51,571 nucleotides of DNA. It comes from a virus. Both the position numbers and the translations under genes were made by a program. The stretch's first letter is position 1, and each line of letters opens with the position of its first letter. The notes beneath the pieces are model-generated. The model was given only the letters and a program-made list of their open reading frames with translations. It was not told the DNA's origin and did not search any database. The stretch is from positions 1 to 51,571 of the IMG/VR virus record IMGVR_UViG_3300013103_000012. One strand, written 5' to 3'. This document shows positions 489-26,589 of the stretch, piece after piece.

Positions 489-641
489 TACACGCTAGCT
501 CAGTCCGTTAGAGCGTCTCAGCCAAGCCCTTAGCTCAGTCGGTTAGAGCTTTGTCCGATTAAGACAGAGGCCCCAGGTTCGAATCCTGGAGGGCTTAACA
601 TAAAGAGAAGGTCGGTGGTTAAAATCCACCGCGTGTAACCA
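489..641 (+). tRNA. Outer tRNA split by an inserted tRNA (halves 489-523 and 601-641)
   Basis: The 5' half has acceptor strand TACACGC (489-495), TA, and a D-arm GCTC/GAGC (498-514). The 3' half has a 5-nt variable loop (609-613), T-arm GGTGG-TTAAAAT-CCACC (614-630), acceptor GCGTGTA (631-637), A and an encoded CCA (639-641). The two acceptor strands pair perfectly over 7 bp, and TCTC (516-519) pairs with GAGA (605-608) as an anticodon stem. The two halves therefore belong to one tRNA, interrupted in the anticodon loop by a complete second tRNA (524-600). The anticodon cannot be read without knowing the splice points; CAT at 599-601 is one possibility. The T-loop has A where C56 is usual. Confidence 0.6.
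524..600 (+). tRNA. Inner tRNA nested inside the outer tRNA, atypical anticodon loop
   Basis: A complete cloverleaf: acceptor AAGCCCT/AGGGCTT (7 of 7 pairs), TA, D-arm GCTC/GAGC with GG in the loop, anticodon stem TTGTC/GACAG, a 5-nt variable loop, and T-arm CCAGG-TTCGAAT-CCTGG. The 7-nt anticodon loop is CGATTAA, so position 33 is G instead of the near-universal U, and the formal anticodon is AUU. The 3' end is AACA, with no encoded CCA, so a CCA-adding enzyme (one is encoded at 15448) would be needed. It could be functional, a pseudo-tRNA, or a structural insert in the outer tRNA. Confidence 0.65.
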
Positions 642-644
642 CAA

Positions 645-720
645 GGGACTCTAGCTCAGTTGGTAGAGCACAACCATGCTAAGGTTGGTGTCGTTGGTTC
701 GAATCCTCCGAGTTCCACCA
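645..720 (+). tRNA. tRNA with formal anticodon GCU, encoded CCA
   Basis: Cloverleaf: acceptor GGGACTC/GAGTTCC (one G-U), D-arm GCTC/GAGC with GG in the loop, anticodon stem CAACC/GGTTG, loop ATGCTAA with U33 present, variable loop GTGTC, T-loop TTCGAAT, A73 and CCA. The anticodon GCU would read serine AGY codons, but serine tRNAs carry a long variable arm and this one has 5 nt. The T-stem GTTGG/CCTCC has two mismatches. Identity is therefore uncertain. Confidence 0.85.
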
Positions 721-4522: not shown

Positions 4523-5160
4523 TGATGCTTGAAAGTATTAAGAACTACAAGAAGAGGACTGTACTTGCTAAACTGCTAAAGACTTACACTCACTTACAGA
4601 GCGAGATGTGGGCTTTCAGAGAGGTAAACAAAGACATAATGGACTTACAAATGAGTAAGTTCAAACTTGAGCTTAGCAAACTTGCTATGCATTTCGACAA
4701 TCTACGAGCTTCAATTCCAGGTCAAGATGAATTGAATAGTTCAAATTATTGGGAACGCCTTAAAAAGCCTGACCTTTCAGATGGGCGATTATGTACATTG
4801 GCACAGTCTTCCCCTGGTACCTCCTTCCAAGGCGTTAGTATTGGTACCACTTATTCGTATGAAGAGATGGAGCAAGAGCAAATCTCCCACATCCAAGACA
4901 CTGTACACCCTGCATTTGTAAAGGCCTTTCAAGATAAGTTCTTCAAAGACTGTGTTAAAGAGGCTAAAACCTCTTTGGACATGGAGTTAACAGGACTTCC
5001 TAATATGGACATTTATGATTTGTATACACTGACGAAGACTCTTGATGGGCGGAATACACTCCTCCCAGACAAGATGGCCTTTACACTAAATGTCAGACCT
5101 GCCTTGGCAAAGATTGCTAAGAAACACAAGACAAATCTAATTATACTAAGGAATACATAA
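4522..5160 (+). CDS. Hypothetical protein with N-terminal coiled coil
   Basis: 212 residues; a basic start (MMLESIKNYKKR), a helical coiled-coil segment to about residue 70, then a less regular region and a basic C-terminus. Two consecutive ATGs make 4522 and 4525 equally possible starts. No known domain. Confidence 0.7.
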   Translation: MMLESIKNYKKRTVLAKLLKTYTHLQSEMWAFREVNKDIMDLQMSKFKLELSKLAMHFDNLRASIPGQDELNSSNYWERLKKPDLSDGRLCTLAQSSPGTSFQGVSIGTTYSYEEMEQEQISHIQDTVHPAFVKAFQDKFFKDCVKEAKTSLDMELTGLPNMDIYDLYTLTKTLDGRNTLLPDKMAFTLNVRPALAKIAKKHKTNLIILRNT

Positions 5161-10857: not shown

Positions 10858-11449
10858 ATTGGATATAAAATTATTACACCACACACCCTTAGACTTTGTA
10901 AACTCGGGTATACGGATGTGTTGGAACTCAGAAGCTAGGTCAGATAATAATGGCCCAATAGACCAAGGTCTGAATGTCCGGATTGCCAACAAGATGAAAC
11001 ACTCTTCTGTATTAAGACATTCTTTGTATGTGTTCAGGATTACTGCCTCTACAAAGACCCTTCTTGCCTTCACAAGACATAAGGCCGGAGTTGACTTTTC
11101 TGTACAATCTACACGATATACTACATCTAAAAGAGCCGATGCTCTTACATTTACACAGACGCCTAACGAGTCTATAAATAAGTCTCTAGAGGTTATTATG
11201 GACTTGGTTCAAGGCCATATTGCTGCAGGTCATTCTGATGATGACATTGCTATGCTTCTTCCACAGGCTTATGATTACACGTGGCAGGTGTCAATGAATG
11301 CACAAGCTATTCAACACTTCCTGTCACTTCGTACTGCCCCATCTGCGCACTATGACATAAGAGCGGTTGCAAATGGTATGTACTCAGTTCTTCCTGATGA
11401 CCACAAGTACTTATTTAAGGACTCTCTACATGTTACAGACACTGATTAA
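10847..11449 (+). CDS. thyX: FAD-dependent thymidylate synthase ThyX
   Basis: 200 residues. The ThyX signature is visible as TRHKAGVDFSVQSTRYT, the RHR-type motif in the 15-residue form known in several ThyX enzymes (Lys replaces the third-position Arg). ThyX makes dTMP from dUMP using methylene-tetrahydrofolate, FAD and NADPH. Other conserved surroundings (SVLRHSLYVFRI; ALTFTQ) fit. It overlaps both neighbours. A phage NAD kinase at 16678 could help to supply NADP(H). Confidence 0.88.
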   Translation: METKLDIKLLHHTPLDFVNSGIRMCWNSEARSDNNGPIDQGLNVRIANKMKHSSVLRHSLYVFRITASTKTLLAFTRHKAGVDFSVQSTRYTTSKRADALTFTQTPNESINKSLEVIMDLVQGHIAAGHSDDDIAMLLPQAYDYTWQVSMNAQAIQHFLSLRTAPSAHYDIRAVANGMYSVLPDDHKYLFKDSLHVTDTD

Positions 11450-12452
11450 GAAGTTCGAAGAAGAGAACGACTGCAAGGTCGTATACTTGACGAAGTCAGG
11501 TTCGACCCTCTACGGAACGAACACTCCCGCTTCAGATGTGGACTATCGCGGTGTATACATTCCGAATAAAAGGGATGTACTTCTCAAGAGAGATCTGCCG
11601 TTATACTCATACTCTACAGGTGGTAAAGACTCTAAGAATACAAAAGACGATATAGATTTTCATTTGGATTCTATACACACTTGGTTCAAACTTCTTAAGA
11701 AGGGTGAGACGGGATCATTAGACTTACTATTCTCTATGTTTAGAGAGGATACGATTGTTCTACAGGACACAGTCTTTCTGAATCTTATTAAGGATAACTA
11801 CAAGTCTTTCTATGGTAAGAACTTACAGGCCTTTGTGGGCTACTGTGTTGGGCAGGCGAGACAGTCAGGGATTAAAGGTACTCGTTATGGTGAGCTTAAG
11901 AGCTTCTTGAAAGTTCTTAATTCTGATAAATATATTCAAGGTGCACTTGACCAGAGGTTGGATGCTCTATTACTTCCTTCAGATGTAAAGAAGTTCAAAT
12001 ACATTAACTTCGTTATGGCCCCTGGTCCACGTTCAAATCGCAAACAAGAAGATATACTCTACCTAGATGTTCTAGGTAAGAAGTATGCACTTCATTCGAC
12101 ATCTCTTGCTCGCCTTATTGAAAAGCTTACAGAGATGGAGGCTTCATACGGTTCAAGGGCTAAAGAGGTTACAGAAGGTATTTGTTACAAAAGTCTGGGA
12201 CATTCCTTGAGGGTCATACTCGAGGTGAAGGAACTTCTTGAGACTAACTTCATTAAGTTCCCACTCTCTCAAAGGCAGTACATTCTAGACATAAGGGCTG
12301 GAAAGGTCGATGAGACTGTGATACTGAATACGATCGAACACTTGATAGAAGAGGTTGATTCTCTATTAGAGACTACGGATATACAAGAGTCTTCGGACAC
12401 AGAGAAAGTAGATGAGATCTACTTACACTTACTTGATTTAAAGGAGAAATAA
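11430..12452 (+). CDS. RlaP-type nucleotidyltransferase (RNA repair)
   Basis: 340 residues from the ATG at 11430 (AAGGA seven bases upstream). It has a Pol-beta-type nucleotidyltransferase signature SGSTLYGTNTPASDVDYRGVY: the GS loop plus the D-x-D metal pair. This arrangement matches the RlaP/DUF4269-like 'predicted nucleotidyltransferase' family, which is often encoded beside RNA ligases in RNA repair operons. Here an RNA ligase gene follows with a one-base overlap. Likely cytoplasmic end-modification of broken RNA; substrate unknown. Confidence 0.8.
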   Translation: MLQTLIKKFEEENDCKVVYLTKSGSTLYGTNTPASDVDYRGVYIPNKRDVLLKRDLPLYSYSTGGKDSKNTKDDIDFHLDSIHTWFKLLKKGETGSLDLLFSMFREDTIVLQDTVFLNLIKDNYKSFYGKNLQAFVGYCVGQARQSGIKGTRYGELKSFLKVLNSDKYIQGALDQRLDALLLPSDVKKFKYINFVMAPGPRSNRKQEDILYLDVLGKKYALHSTSLARLIEKLTEMEASYGSRAKEVTEGICYKSLGHSLRVILEVKELLETNFIKFPLSQRQYILDIRAGKVDETVILNTIEHLIEEVDSLLETTDIQESSDTEKVDEIYLHLLDLKEK

Positions 12453-13573
12453 TGAGAAAATTGGTGACAATTAAAAAGATTGATAAATTAATTCCTATCC
12501 CTAAGAAGGATAGAATAGTTCTGGCTGTAATTGGTGGCTGGTCGGTGATTGTTAAGAAGGATGAGTTCGTTGTTAATGATCTTTGTGTATTCTTCGAGAT
12601 TGACAGTTTCTTACCTGTGGCTGATATGTATGAGTTCTTAGGTAAACCTACTACTCACCAGGATAAACTTGGACACAGATTGAGAACTATGAAGATGTCT
12701 GGGGCTGTTTCACAGGGACTGGCACTACCTTTAAATATGCTCTTCGGCAAGCCTGAAGATGTTACTGAAGGTTCAGACTGGACTGAAGAGTTTGGAGTAA
12801 TTAAATTTGATATTGATCTTACTCAACAAGGTAAGGGTGGTGGCTTGCAGGTTACTGGACAACCTAAAAGCAAATTCCCTAGTTTTTTAAGAAAGACTGA
12901 TCAAGAACGTATTCAGAACTTGCCTCATTACTTTGAGGTTCATAAGAATACATTATTTGAAGAGACACTTAAATTGGATGGATCTTCTATGACTTGTTAT
13001 AAGATTGACAACGACATTCCTTTCTGGAAAGGTTGGATCAATATGCTGGCTGTACTGGTAGGCTACAAGGATATAACAGAACCTGATGTATTTCCGTTTA
13101 ACCACTTTGGTGTGTGTTCTAGGAATCTAGAGCTTAAACGCCCTGGGTCTGAAGATAAGAAGTCTAACTTCTGGACAGCTGCCACTAATGCTGAGCTTGA
13201 AAGAGATCTGCCTACAGGTTATGCTGTACAAGGTGAAGTGCTTGCTACAAATATACAGGCTAATTATGAGAAAGTGGATTCTGTTGAATTTCACATATTC
13301 TCTGTATTCAATATTGAGACACAAGAATACTTAAATCCTACGGATGCTTCTGCATTCGTTAAGAAGTACTTACCTGACGCTACACATATTCCTATAGTGG
13401 ATACGCTGCCTATATTTGATACTTGTAAAGACTTTGATTCTTTACAAGAAAGAGTTACAGGACCTTCAATTAATTCAGATGTTAAGTCTGAAGGTAGGGT
13501 CTATAAGTCATTAGAGGGTACTATTACTTTTAAGTGCGTGTCTAATGCCTACTTGCTACAGAAAAGTAAGTAA
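12452..13573 (+). CDS. RNA ligase, Rnl5/DRB0094-like
   Basis: 373 residues. An N-terminal ~170-residue OB-like domain precedes the ligase core, as in the Deinococcus DRB0094 (Rnl5) type. Motif I is TLKLDGSSMTCYK with the lysine that becomes adenylylated; motif III is FGVCSRNLELK; a GEV segment fits motif IIIa/IV; motif V is likely LEGTITFKC near the end. It would seal nicks in RNA using ATP. It is coupled to the RlaP gene and close to a CCA-adding enzyme, so tRNA repair or tRNA splicing is the natural inference. Confidence 0.85.
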   Translation: MRKLVTIKKIDKLIPIPKKDRIVLAVIGGWSVIVKKDEFVVNDLCVFFEIDSFLPVADMYEFLGKPTTHQDKLGHRLRTMKMSGAVSQGLALPLNMLFGKPEDVTEGSDWTEEFGVIKFDIDLTQQGKGGGLQVTGQPKSKFPSFLRKTDQERIQNLPHYFEVHKNTLFEETLKLDGSSMTCYKIDNDIPFWKGWINMLAVLVGYKDITEPDVFPFNHFGVCSRNLELKRPGSEDKKSNFWTAATNAELERDLPTGYAVQGEVLATNIQANYEKVDSVEFHIFSVFNIETQEYLNPTDASAFVKKYLPDATHIPIVDTLPIFDTCKDFDSLQERVTGPSINSDVKSEGRVYKSLEGTITFKCVSNAYLLQKSK

Positions 13574-13636: not shown

Positions 13637-13813
13637 ATGAACATTCTAGACTACGACGATTGGTGTGAGCAGACAGGTTACGAACTCTTCCAAGAGGTCG
13701 ACTACTCATACTCAAAGACAAATATTCACACACACTTGCAAGAGGCTTACGAGTCATATGTTGCAGATATGACTGACAAGATTCATAAAGACATAAAGGC
13801 TGACAGATGTTAA
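13637..13813 (+). CDS. 58-residue hypothetical protein
   Basis: The ATG follows AAAAGGATACACA and the stop overlaps the start of the phosphoesterase gene. The acidic product begins MNILDYDDWCEQTGYELF and has a helical C-terminus. Coding is supported by a good ribosome-binding site and coupling. No function recognised. Confidence 0.65.
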   Translation: MNILDYDDWCEQTGYELFQEVDYSYSKTNIHTHLQEAYESYVADMTDKIHKDIKADRC

Positions 13814-14460
13814 AGGTGGTATGTGTGAGTGACACTCATGAGCTACATGCGCAGTTAGATCTTACGATCTATCCAGATTGTGATATATTACTACATGCTG
13901 GGGATTTCTCCGGTACAGGGACTAAAACTGAGACTATTAAATTCTTTGAGTGGTTTAATAGACAACCATTCAAGCATAAGATATTTATAAATGGGAATCA
14001 TGATTGGCTCGGAGAGAGAGACCCCGAAGCATTCGCTAACTTAGTAGCTAACTATCCTGACATTACACACCTACAAGGTACTGGTATAGTTGTCGAGGGT
14101 ATTAAGATACAGGGTTTTGCGGATACACCTGAGTTCTGTAACTGGGCGTTCAATCGTACACAAGAAGAACTAACTGAGATATGGAAAGGCATTGACGAAG
14201 ACACTGACGTTTTATTATGTCATGGCCCACCACACTATATATTAGATGAAGTTAACAACAACTGGTCGGCTACTTGTAATGTAGGAGACCCTGCACTAGC
14301 TTTAGCTGTATCCAAGCTTGACCTTAAAGCTTGTGTATTCGGTCACATACATACTCAAGGTGGTAAGCAAGTGGAGATAGATGGTACATTATTTGTTAAT
14401 GCTGCCGTACTTAATGACGGTTACCAATTAGCCTATGAGCCTCAGCTTATAGAGGTTTAA
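13807..14460 (+). CDS. Calcineurin-like metallophosphoesterase
   Basis: 217 residues with all the family motifs in order: VSDTHE, HAGDFSG, NGNHDW, CHGPP and GHIH. These coordinate two metals and hydrolyse phosphomono- or diesters. The short form without extra domains resembles stand-alone phage and bacterial phosphodiesterases; substrates may include 2',3'-cyclic ends or nucleotides, and the RNA-repair context makes RNA ends attractive, but this is inference. Confidence 0.88.
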   Translation: MLKVVCVSDTHELHAQLDLTIYPDCDILLHAGDFSGTGTKTETIKFFEWFNRQPFKHKIFINGNHDWLGERDPEAFANLVANYPDITHLQGTGIVVEGIKIQGFADTPEFCNWAFNRTQEELTEIWKGIDEDTDVLLCHGPPHYILDEVNNNWSATCNVGDPALALAVSKLDLKACVFGHIHTQGGKQVEIDGTLFVNAAVLNDGYQLAYEPQLIEV

Positions 14461-15447: not shown

Positions 15448-16677
15448 ATGAATACATATTTAGTTGGAGGATCAGTTCGAGACTCCTTGATAAATGACAT
15501 ACACGGGACAGACATTCAGTCTAATGACAAAGACTACTGCGTTGTAGGTTCATCGATGAATGAGATGATCTCTCTTGGATACACATTTGTAGGTAAGGAT
15601 TTCCCTGTATTTCTACACCCAGAGACAAAAGATGAATACGCTCTTGCTAGACGCGAGAGATCCACTGGTGGAGGTCATTCAGACTTCATTACTGAGTTAA
15701 GTGACGTTACACTTGACGAGGACTTGTTACGCCGGGATTTGAGTGTGAACTCAATCGCATATGACGAAGACTCTGGAGATTACATTGATCCACACGGTGG
15801 TATAGATGATATTCGTAAGAAGGTATTAAGACATACTTCAGATGCTTTCAGAGAGGACCCTGTAAGGGTACTTCGATTGGCAAGATTCAGAGCTACTCTA
15901 GGTACAGATTGGAAGATCGCCCACGCTACAAAGGCTTTATGTTACGATATGCGAGTTACTCTTACTTCACTTACTCCAGAACGAATCTGGAAAGAGGTCG
16001 AGAAGGCTTTACTTCTTCCGAACTCACGAGTATTCTTTGAGACTCTTCTTGAGTTGAATATACTTGGATACGTATTCCCTGTGCTAGAGCCTATGGTTCT
16101 ATGCAAGGAGGGTAGTAAACACCACAGAGAGTCCTCTGTATTTGAACACACTATGATGATGCTGGACGTTGTCCATGATAAGTCACTAGAAATTAAGACT
16201 GCTGTCTTATTCCACGATGTGGCTAAGCCACACTGTTACAAATACTTTGGTTCGTCTGCAGGACATGCAAGTCCTGTATACTTTGCTCCACTTCTGCCTA
16301 ACTGGCTTCCGAAGAAGTTGCTAGGTACTACGCTATTCTTAGTGGAGAATCATACGAAGATTTACAAGACACATGAGATGACTGCAAAGACTATTGCTAC
16401 ATTCCTTGCGAAGTACAAGACTTCACAAATGCTTGAGGATCAGCTTACGCTTGCACATGCGGACGATGCTGGAAGGCTTGCAGATCCTGGAGTTTCAAAA
16501 GAGATTGAGTACACTCTTATAAGAGATACTTGGACGAAGATAAAGGCTTACTCTCCTTGGGAATGGATAAAGGACGAACTTGTTCGTAATAGGACTCCGA
16601 GTGGCGAGGCTATAAGACAGAATGTACACTCTTACAATATACAAGTTGTGAAAGAGATATTCAAAAAGGATAAATAG
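15448..16677 (+). CDS. cca: CCA-adding tRNA nucleotidyltransferase (class II, with HD domain)
   Basis: 409 residues, close in order and length to E. coli Cca. It starts NTYLVGGSVRDSL, has DFPVFLHPETKDEYALARRER, the RRDLSVNSIA motif and EDPVRVLRLARF, then an HD phosphohydrolase domain (VFEHTMMM..., LFHDVAKP). It adds or repairs the 3' CCA of tRNAs; the HD domain in E. coli gives phosphatase and phosphodiesterase activity. Several phage tRNAs here lack an encoded CCA, so the enzyme is directly useful. With RNA ligase and RlaP it forms an RNA-repair set. Confidence 0.92.
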   Translation: MNTYLVGGSVRDSLINDIHGTDIQSNDKDYCVVGSSMNEMISLGYTFVGKDFPVFLHPETKDEYALARRERSTGGGHSDFITELSDVTLDEDLLRRDLSVNSIAYDEDSGDYIDPHGGIDDIRKKVLRHTSDAFREDPVRVLRLARFRATLGTDWKIAHATKALCYDMRVTLTSLTPERIWKEVEKALLLPNSRVFFETLLELNILGYVFPVLEPMVLCKEGSKHHRESSVFEHTMMMLDVVHDKSLEIKTAVLFHDVAKPHCYKYFGSSAGHASPVYFAPLLPNWLPKKLLGTTLFLVENHTKIYKTHEMTAKTIATFLAKYKTSQMLEDQLTLAHADDAGRLADPGVSKEIEYTLIRDTWTKIKAYSPWEWIKDELVRNRTPSGEAIRQNVHSYNIQVVKEIFKKDK

Positions 16678-24570: not shown

Positions 24571-24961
24571 CAAATTCCCTTACCTGAATAATCGAATAGT
24601 GAATGGTAAGAACTGTCAGATCTTCGATGGATCCTGGACAGTGGCGAGGAGGCTTAAGCTCAACGTACAAGTGCCCAGCGTATCCTAACGGATGGTGCTG
24701 TCTATGGTGACATAGGCGGTAGCCAATCTTGTACAAACGTCATAGTTGGATTGACATTAAACAGCCCAGACCACATACTCCAGAGTGGGGTGTGGCTACT
24801 ACATAGTATAAATGAGTCAATGGCTTGCAATTCATAGCCAATAGATTGGCCTCCGTAATCCTGCCTTCAGGGCTAAACGACCTTTCTGAACCACTTGAAA
24901 GACTCAAGGTGACTTATTGAGCATGGCAGTTGAAAGCACTGCCCAACTTAGGTTGAGGTAT

Positions 24962-25031
24962 GAAATGAATCGCCCAGCGGTAGGGCACGGGTCGCTCCTC
25001 AAGGCGTAGGTTCGAATCCTACTTCATTTCA
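24962..25031 (+). tRNA. tRNA-like element A (truncated anticodon arm)
   Basis: Acceptor AAATGAA/TTCATTT (7 bp, extendable), TC, a D-arm GCCC-AGCGGTA-GGGC very like that of glutamine tRNAs, and T-arm GTAGG-TTCGAAT-CCTAC. The anticodon region (24988-25005) is about four bases short and forms no normal 5-bp stem with a 7-nt loop. No CCA is encoded directly. It is more likely a tRNA-like domain or decayed tRNA than a decoding tRNA. Confidence 0.55.
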
Positions 25032-25391
25032 CACCTCAGTCTAACTGAACTGACGTCCCGGCCTGTGACGACACATGGGCCTGGCTTGCTGAGAAGCCTC
25101 AGTGAACTCGCCGAAGAGTCCATTAGAGTCCGTGCGTATATTCTCGGAATAATATCTAGGCATCAAAGAGTAGTGCTCACCGATGTCGAAGCCCAAGCAA
25201 CGAAGGCTTTAAATCTACGAGAGATCGTAGTATCATTTGCATACCCGTATCAAATTTGTAGTCTAGTGGGTATATTCTACATTATTAGTCGATCGCTATA
25301 ACTCCATTCACAATTATGCCTAATAAGCTTAGTGATGGTTATAAGTACCTCCCTCCTCTCAATGATGAGCAAACGGTGGTGCCTTTTCATA

Positions 25392-25509
25392 TGTCCTAAT
25401 AGCTAATTACCCCTTTGGTTAAAGCGCCTGGCAGCCTGGTGTGGGCAATACCACACTGTACTAGAGTAATTGTACGCGGGGAGATGACGTTCGAATCGTC
25501 AAAGGACAC
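25392..25509 (+). other. tRNA-like element B, interrupted
   Basis: Acceptor-like strands TGTCCT (25392-25397) and AGGACA (25503-25508) pair over 6 bp. A D-arm-like part (AGCTAATT...GGTTAAAGC) is followed by about 60 bases with two hairpins (25439-25456 and 25458-25475), then T-arm TGACG-TTCGAAT-CGTCA. No ordinary anticodon arm is visible. The same bases 25401-25425 can also be aligned with the H41/H42 region of 23S rRNA just upstream of the L11-binding domain, so both readings are kept open. Confidence 0.4.
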
Positions 25510-25517
25510 TACGGGAA

Positions 25518-25603
25518 GTTGGCTTAGAAGCAGCCAGTATGAGTGCTAATTACACACGTGCATACATCTTTTAAAGAGTAGGAAATCGGGTACTATCCAC
25601 TGG
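25518..25603 (+). other. Segment matching the 23S rRNA GTPase-associated centre (L11-binding domain)
   Basis: GTTGGCTTAGAAGCAGCCA (25518-25536) is, from memory of the E. coli sequence, identical over 19 nt to the helix-43 part of the L11-binding domain (around nt 1057-1075). It is followed, after an inserted hairpin (GTATG...CATAC, 25537-25565), by ATCTTTTAAAGA, corresponding to ATCATTTAAAGA in 23S, and later by GTACTATCCACTGG, corresponding to GTAATAGCTCACTGG. The blocks are in rRNA order. A single 19-nt match in 2 kb is far beyond chance. Confidence 0.7.
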
Positions 25604-25966
25604 GACACTAACCAACACAGTCAGACCAGTATAGATGCAATCACACCGAATACCTTTTGGCGTAACAGCACACCACAGCGCAATTGGAACTACTTTCACA
25701 TCACCGGCGCTATATAAATAGAACTGAGAAGGGCAAGTTGCATCACTTGTAGTAGTAAAAGTACATCATCGGCAATTGATAATTGCCTTCATACTGGTAC
25801 ATGAATATAACCAGAGGTAGAGCTATAGCTGGCTAAACCATAGCAACATCCACTTCTAATCTTGATATCTACAGTAAACGGTATTTCAAGTACTTTGTTA
25901 AGTAACAGTGAAAAGATGAGGACCAACACTAGTTAGTACGGATTAATCATCCGTATGTTTTTATAT

Positions 25967-26047
25967 GCGGGATGTAGATTTACTAAACCTAATGATGACT
26001 AGTTAAGTCAGAAGGCAGAGGATGTTCAATTCATCTGTCCCGTTCCA
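25967..26047 (+). tRNA. tRNA-like element C, formal anticodon GUU, encoded CCA
   Basis: Acceptor GCGGGAT/GTCCCGT (7 pairs, two G-U), anticodon stem TGAC/GTCA around loop TAGTTAA, T-arm GGATG-TTCAATT-CATCT, U73 and CCA (26045-26047). The formal anticodon GUU would be asparagine, but position 33 is A, not U. The D-region (25976-25994) has no GG and only a poor stem, and the variable loop is long. It may be an unusual tRNA or a tRNA-like domain of the larger RNA. Confidence 0.5.
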
Positions 26048-26077
26048 AATCTTAGTGATGAGTGTACACGAAACAAA

Positions 26078-26102
26078 TCTGGTTCGAATCCAGAGGTGTG
26101 GG
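26078..26102 (+). other. Orphan T-arm (tRNA-like element D)
   Basis: TCTGG-TTCGAAT-CCAGA followed by GGTGTGG, which would be the 3' acceptor strand of a tRNA. The matching 5' strand CCACACC is not found immediately upstream; the GTGGG within it pairs instead with CCCAC downstream (26121-26125). It may be half of a split or permuted tRNA, or a structural T-loop. Confidence 0.4.
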
Positions 26103-26187
26103 TAGAATTCCTACCTGAGCCCACGTTGATAATCGTTGGATAAACCATCAATGTGTACATTCTTCGGTGAGATTATATCCACCCGCA

Positions 26188-26455
26188 ACTCCAGAGTTCA
26201 CATTCGACACGCGTATAGTTGATTTGAGGAGTGTAACCTTTGAACATATATGCAATAGCATCACACCTGTGACGGTGTCTGGGCTAGTCCTTCTTATGGA
26301 CAGTGCAGAAGTGGGAAACGAACCACCTGTATGATACGGGAATGAGCCAACAAGTGCCGTGTAATAAATCGATAAAGCATAAAACCTACGTAAGGTACAC
26401 TGTTCCTTCGGGAGGAAAGCAGAAGTACTATGGGACGAGAACTCTCAAAGAACGT
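26188..26455 (+). other. Ordered similarity to 23S rRNA domain V (peptidyl-transferase region)
   Basis: In order: ACTCC then AGAGTTCACATTCGAC (26193-26208; 23S helix 89 loop reads AGAGTTCACATCGAC in many bacteria) closed by GGAGT (26228-26232); CATCACA (26259-26265) and TCTGGGCT (~26278-26285), compare CATCACATCCTGGGGCT; AAGGTACACTGTTC (26392-26405), compare the A-loop AAGGGTATGGCTGTTC; GTAC; and AGAACGT (26449-26455), compare TTTAGAACGTCG. Single matches are weak; the order and spacing together are suggestive. Many conserved catalytic-core bases are absent, so it is not a normal rRNA. Confidence 0.4.
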
Positions 26456-26589
26456 ACAAAGTGGTTCAACCACGGTCAAGTCACAGGTCTTGGCAGAACA
26501 ATATAATTATATGGAGTACATATCATGGATAGCTGAGTTCAGAACAGCAATGTGTACTCTAGTATGAATATACTAATAAAGGACAATAA

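Follow-up and report, generated by a model that had tools for sequence, protein, structure and literature searches.

Can a phage tRNA gene hold a second, complete tRNA gene within its anticodon loop, and would the outer tRNA be restored once the inner one had been removed? This question is raised by a tRNA cluster in IMGVR_UViG_3300013103_000012, a linear virus record of 51,571 bases, the whole of which was analysed here and will henceforth be referred to as the window. Our best explanation overall, held with moderate confidence, is that the inner tRNA is a removable, intron-like insert of a recurrent phage class, which would be cut out by tRNA maturation, with the outer halves probably being rejoined in the best-preserved members of that class.

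Anatomy and wear of the nested locus

The tRNA cluster sits between the end of a protein gene (position 453) and the next open reading frame (ORF), and contains the following features:

489–523, plus strand: 5' half of the outer tRNA (acceptor strand TACACGC, D arm with C18, 5' strand of the anticodon stem TCTC(A), loop bases GCC)
524–597, plus strand: complete inner tRNA (acceptor stem AAGCCCT/AGGGCTT, A73, anticodon loop CGATTAA; ARAGORN and Rfam)
598–641, plus strand: 3' half of the outer tRNA (loop part (A)CATAA, 3' strand of the anticodon stem (A)GAGA, T arm GGTGG-TTAAAAT-CCACC)
631–641, plus strand: 3' end of the outer tRNA (acceptor strand GCGTGTA at 631–637, A638, CCA at 639–641)
645–720, plus strand: tRNA with a GCU anticodon, directly downstream of the outer tRNA (ARAGORN and Rfam)

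An earlier note on this DNA, made from the sequence alone, had placed one tRNA inside the anticodon loop of another at 489–641, and both its coordinates and its anatomy were confirmed: the outer tRNA (489–641) holds the complete tRNA 524–597 inside its anticodon loop. The perfect pairing that the note had claimed applies to the acceptor stem of the inner tRNA (7/7) and to that of the outer one (489–495/631–637, TACACGC/GCGTGTA; 7/7, all Watson-Crick), but was slightly overstated for the halves of the outer anticodon stem, which form four pairs (TCTC/GAGA) and an A31.A39 mismatch (4/5). The outer D stem (GCTC/GAGC) has four of four pairs and the T stem (614–618/626–630, GGTGG/CCACC) five of five, and the outer tRNA also encodes A73 and CCA. 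ARAGORN and Rfam both called the inner tRNA (56.9 bits in Rfam), the stems of which are intact and the D and T loops normal, and both missed the outer one. The anticodon of the inner tRNA is read by ARAGORN as Asn ATT and is possibly an out-of-register Ile GAU; its loop (CGATTAA) has G33, and its 3' tail is ACA, CCA not being encoded. The GCU tRNA begins 3 bases past the outer CCA and is probably on the same transcript as the nested locus; it has two T-stem mispairs and no long variable arm, which is odd for a tRNA-Ser.

We assessed whether the pairing of the outer halves could be due to chance by joining the 5' half of one phage tRNA to the 3' half of another, using 858 tRNAs parsed from the collected loci. 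An acceptor stem of 7/7 together with at least four anticodon-stem pairs was obtained in 0.11% of draws, and seven Watson-Crick acceptor pairs, as in the outer tRNA of the window, in 0.017%. Given that these frequencies are about 1 in 1,000 or lower, accidental flanking of the inner tRNA by two unrelated tRNA fragments is unlikely; the nesting at 489–641 is real. Folding of the precursor gave −47.7 kcal/mol for the double cloverleaf and −52.8 kcal/mol for the minimum, in which the two D arms pair with each other, meaning that folding energy alone neither proves nor excludes the nest.

Judged by its sequence, this copy of the outer tRNA looks worn. C18 replaces G18 and A56 replaces C56, so that both classical elbow contacts are lost, and the anticodon loop has G32-C33 and no U33; among the 858 phage tRNAs, U33 was present in 94% and A31.A39 in 0.35%. 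The outer tRNA thus falls short of a functional elongator tRNA in U33 and in the elbow contacts of G18-G19 with U55-C56. The product of insert removal would depend on where the cuts fall. Cleavage by RNase P, combined with a 3' cut directly behind A597, would leave an outer loop of 9 nt (GCC+ACATAA) without U33, and removal of ACA along with the inner tRNA a loop of six bases. Only removal of 524–599 (76 nt) would give a seven-base loop (GCCATAA, anticodon CAU), and this was the only removal after which ARAGORN recognised a tRNA in the rejoined sequence (Met CAT).

Interrupted tRNAs in other phages

Nested tRNA genes had been taken in the earlier note to be undescribed in phages, a claim that does not stand: Devoto et al. 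2019 had already reported tRNA introns in Lak phages, which they termed enigmatic, and one of which, lying in a tRNA-Thr, may in turn code for a tRNA (PMC6784885). A 2021 follow-up notes only that Lak tRNAs contain introns (PMC8346664). We found neither a splicing mechanism nor a further nested phage tRNA in the literature searched, which was mostly without subscription papers and preprints.

To look for other cases, we scanned IMG/VR for two D arms or two T arms lying too close together, and parsed the matches by scripts for an outer and an inner tRNA. A first scan with a strict nested D-arm pattern gave no matches, and wider patterns succeeded, yielding at least six further nested cases in phages (L025, L056, L060, L063/L064, L076 and L095). 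The outer loops and inner tRNAs were CTTTT[insert]AA (Lys UUU) around an Asn GUU tRNA with CCA in L025; CTT[insert]TTAA (Lys UUU) around a tRNA-like piece without a normal anticodon arm in L056, as would be expected if the job of the inner piece were excision; CTT[insert]CTAA (Arg UCU) around a Phe GAA tRNA with a CCC tail in L095; and CTTT[insert]TAA (Lys UUU) around a Pro UGG-like tRNA with a short 3' extension in L063/L064. The inner tRNA of L076 is Ile GAU. L060 is Cellulophaga phage phi4:1, the nest of which is identical in seven GenBank records of the cultured phages phi4:1 and phi17:2; GenBank and ARAGORN list only its inner tRNA (tRNA-Ile), and its outer tRNA is slightly worn (T1.T72, A31.A39, C33, no CCA). 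With the insert removed, ARAGORN recognised a canonical outer tRNA in five cases, namely Lys(UUU) in L025, L056, L063 and L064 and Arg(UCU) in L095, the removed part in L025, L056 and L095 being exactly the inner tRNA with its 3-nt CCA or CCC tail. On this shared gene architecture, the window locus is a member of a recurrent class of tRNA-in-tRNA genes in unrelated phages, cultured ones included.

The scans also returned patterns of other kinds. Most pattern matches in genome collections were rejected as nested genes, being tandem partial copies of a tRNA. In two genome bins of candidate-phyla bacteria (L031, 2522–2710, minus strand, WWE3; L035, 468–642, minus strand, Liptonbacteria) a tRNA is interrupted by an insert in which a long helix flanks a complete tRNA, a pattern that was rare (3/380 genomes of that phylum). 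A locus at 4990–5080 of L025 resembles a circularly permuted tRNA with an ill-defined anticodon stem, in which a T arm and the 3' acceptor TTTACCA precede the 5' acceptor TGGTAAA and a D arm. Many viral contigs (L046, L048–L052, L054, L058, L059, L061, L062 and L068) share a conserved module in which a D-arm half (GTAGCTCAG.TGGTAGAGCATAC) precedes another tRNA by about 35 nt and, in several of them, a lone T arm (TCGTTGGTTCGATTCCAACAACCGTAATC) lies downstream; this is not a simple nested tRNA. The minus strand of L146 holds candidate interrupted or double-T-arm tRNAs at reverse-complement positions 2204 and 2470, with acceptors GGGGAAG/CTTCCCC and TCGCGAT/ATCGCGA.

Evidence of selection on the outer tRNA came from the related phages L063 and L064. 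Between them, the double cloverleaf retains every one of its 42 pairs, 10 of which are changed on both sides, and seven of these ten double changes lie in the outer tRNA, including three in the acceptor stem and two in the anticodon stem, i.e., in stems whose strands are split by the insert. This compensation comes from a comparison of two sequences, in which the outer changes were clean; when the partner was shifted by 1–3 columns as a control, no double changes remained. A weaker signal was seen in a pair of Thr(UGU) genes with inserts of the Lak type (L123/L170), where four outer double changes were found and 40 of 500 shuffles reached that value. Selection acts on the pairing of the outer halves in the best-preserved members of this class, where these halves are probably rejoined.

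A relative carrying the window locus was not found in searches with the upstream gene, the lysozyme-like gene, the RNA ligase and the DNA polymerase; the upstream gene retrieved contigs at 40–59% identity, without tRNAs at that place. We also considered whether the nests of the window, phi4:1 and L076 are homologous, as all three share a GAT in the loop of the inner tRNA and a CAT in the 3' half. Their alignment had a mean column identity of 74%, which is not above general tRNA similarity, and their homology remains a lead.

Proposed excision and joining, and competing explanations

The ends produced by RNase P and tRNase Z, 3'-OH and 5'-phosphate, are those that ATP-dependent RNA ligases join. 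In the scheme we favour, the inner tRNA would behave like an intron that can be removed from the anticodon loop of the outer one: RNase P would cut between 523 and 524, the cut behind A597 would be made by tRNase Z or a different 3' nuclease, and CCA would then be added to the inner tRNA. The outer halves would be left with a 3'-OH and a 5'-phosphate, ends that an ATP-dependent RNA ligase could seal. We infer every step of this cutting and joining, in keeping with the observed nesting, its recurrence, the compensated pairs and the canonical outer tRNAs of five cases.

Several genes of the window could contribute to such a route:

11367–12452, plus strand: RlaP-type nucleotidyltransferase of the RNA repair pathway (PF10127, E 7e-14)
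12452–13573, plus strand: Rnl5-type ATP-dependent RNA ligase (PF21189 OB-fold and PF09414; motif KLDG)
13807–14460, plus strand: calcineurin-like phosphoesterase, in the same gene run
15448–16677, plus strand: CCA-adding tRNA nucleotidyltransferase (PF01743 and PF12627)

The RNA ligase that the earlier note had placed at 12452 is genuine and Rnl5-like, with an N-terminal OB domain and a nucleotidyltransferase domain carrying KxDG. Its closest solved structure is the Naegleria gruberi RNA ligase, and it is related to DRB0094, scoring 132 bits against TIGR02306 (DRB0094), under the equivalog cut-off of 151. The CCA-adding enzyme would be needed by the inner tRNA, since the latter lacks CCA. Together, the ligase, RlaP, the phosphoesterase and the CCA-adding enzyme are suggestive of a joining mechanism, with which they would fit. 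The specific link to this ligase that the earlier note had suggested, as an enzyme that could join the outer halves, was not supported: PF09414 ligases were found in 5 of 8 records of at least 45 kb with interrupted tRNAs and in 15 of 40 other large viral records bearing tRNAs (Fisher p 0.25), and no RNA ligase was found in the phi4:1 genome or in the records of L076 and L170. A search for the T4 Rnl1 family (PF09511) had no match anywhere, controls included, and hence was uninformative. The outer tRNA of phi4:1 may remain unjoined, or the ligase could be supplied by the host.

Two observations on coding and non-coding sequence were made alongside. The reading frames of RNA ligase homologues in the L063 and L064 records contain in-frame TGA codons, which suggests that TGA is read as an amino acid in these phages. 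Elsewhere in the window, 24571–26589 is a stretch of about 2 kb without an ORF of at least 80 aa, containing a tRNA-like gene (24963–25030; Rfam 44.1 bits) missed by ARAGORN; no other Rfam family matched there, even at E 1, and it is possibly a large structured RNA.

A less likely reading is that the outer tRNA is a dead remnant: following the insertion of one tRNA gene into another, the inner gene would function and the flanking outer halves would be decaying leftovers. The C18, A56 and A31.A39 of the window, its missing U33, the lack of a canonical loop on exact excision and the slight wear of the phi4:1 outer tRNA all agree with this, but 20 outer pairs of the window are intact and CCA is encoded, so that decay would have had to spare the stems, and in L063/L064 the outer pairs are compensated across the insert. 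It is improbable that both tRNAs of the locus are non-decoding, serving as a tRNA decoy or a processing signal or decaying as a whole: the inner G33 and the outer C33 are both unusual and the neighbouring GCU tRNA is also irregular, but the inner tRNA speaks against it with its intact stems, its normal D and T loops and its bit score.

We consider an assembly chimera of two tRNA genes from one tRNA-rich population very improbable. The contig is indeed metagenomic (IMG/VR), and several of the pattern matches in genome bins resemble tandem partial duplicates; against this, a 7/7 acceptor stem between halves of unrelated tRNAs is improbable, and cultured isolates have the same architecture. There is equally little to recommend an interruption of the outer tRNA by a self-splicing intron of group I or II, or by one of the archaeal bulge-helix-bulge type. 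Although the anticodon loop is the usual place for tRNA introns, Rfam found only a tRNA in the insert and no match to a group I or II family, the insert is a cloverleaf of only 74 nt plus a few bases, and no bulge-helix-bulge was recognised.

Excision of the inner tRNA would most likely proceed by ordinary tRNA maturation. Of the sequence of events that the earlier note had envisaged, removal by RNase P and 3' processing remains plausible, but a clean join by a ligase was not borne out for this copy, given its predicted 9-nt loop without U33. Splicing is plausible for the class, for which L025, L056, L095 and L063/L064 provide good motivation, and uncertain for the window copy, because its outer tRNA is worn and exact excision would not rebuild the loop. 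The several damaging changes in its outer tRNA make it unlikely that this copy is rejoined into a tRNA that still decodes; the inner tRNA may be its sole product.

Comparison with known systems

A close parallel to the window locus is the nest of Cellulophaga phi4:1/phi17:2. Both have a complete inner tRNA, A31.A39 and C33 in the outer tRNA and CATAA at the 3' junction. They differ in that the inner tRNA of phi4:1/phi17:2 is a normal Ile(GAU) with CCA and the outer one has an intact elbow, a T1.T72 mismatch and no CCA; moreover, the window encodes an Rnl5-like ligase, whereas no RNA ligase was found in the genome of phi4:1/phi17:2. With Cellulophaga baltica as their host, the cultured phages phi4:1 and phi17:2 make the question of splicing open to a laboratory test.

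The Lak introns resemble the window in being found in a phage tRNA, in interrupting its anticodon loop and in having an insert with tRNA structure. The window insert can fold as a tRNA (ARAGORN, Rfam) and lies in the anticodon loop, two features of the Lak class. A shared Lak-type layout was found in the following genes:

L207, from 20892: Lak-type tRNA intron
L208, from 20887: Lak-type tRNA intron
L123, 3871–4022 and 5005–5158: Lak-type tRNA introns
L170, 5773–5936, minus strand: Lak-type tRNA intron

The inserts of L123, L170 and Lak are not full tRNAs. They begin with a 5' hairpin, the loop of which has six bases, and continue with an A-rich linker and a minihelix of acceptor and T arm, the 3' end of which adjoins the 3' exon; in Rfam, each of the L123 genes was scored as one tRNA containing a long insert (53.8 and 59.7 bits). 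The tRNA-Gly(UCC) is uninterrupted in Lak-A1 (CCAGT CTTCCAA ACTGG) and interrupted in Lak-A2 and Lak-C1 (TCGGT CTTCC[insert]AA ACCGA), and this comparison of intron-free and interrupted genes places the insert between positions 36 and 37. In four of six Lak-type genes the discriminator-position base is immediately followed by the 3' boundary, a predicted tRNase Z cut site. The window insert, by contrast, is essentially the inner cloverleaf only, where the Lak type (L207, L123, L170) has a 5' hairpin and an acceptor/T-arm minihelix; the window phage is unrelated to Lak by the searches made, and its outer tRNA is worn.

Interrupted phage tRNAs, termed enigmatic in 2019, are still unexplained in the literature we found. 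In the suggested common design, the insert would place a tRNA, or a minihelix of the tRNA type, where splicing occurs, so that the host's universal tRNA processing enzymes could set the cuts. We tentatively propose that phages thereby get two tRNAs per gene, a tRNA or an acceptor/T-arm minihelix serving as the intron, RNase P and 3' processing making the cuts and a ligase acting on 3'-OH and 5'-phosphate ends joining the halves. If such joining occurs, it would constitute an enzymatic route of tRNA splicing in bacteria and phages that standard annotation has missed, distinct from self-splicing introns and from the archaeal and eukaryotic endonuclease.

To our knowledge, a tRNA-splicing endonuclease is not expected in a phage or a bacterium. 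In T4-type tRNA repair (anticodon nuclease, Pnkp and RNA ligase 1), a phage ligase joins tRNA halves at the anticodon loop; in the window, by analogy, excision of the inner tRNA would create the break, and the ligase is of the Rnl5 kind instead of Rnl1. The permuted, split and intron-containing tRNAs of archaea and red algae are likewise disrupted genes that need cutting and joining, but in the window the halves stand in normal order and the intervening piece is itself a tRNA.
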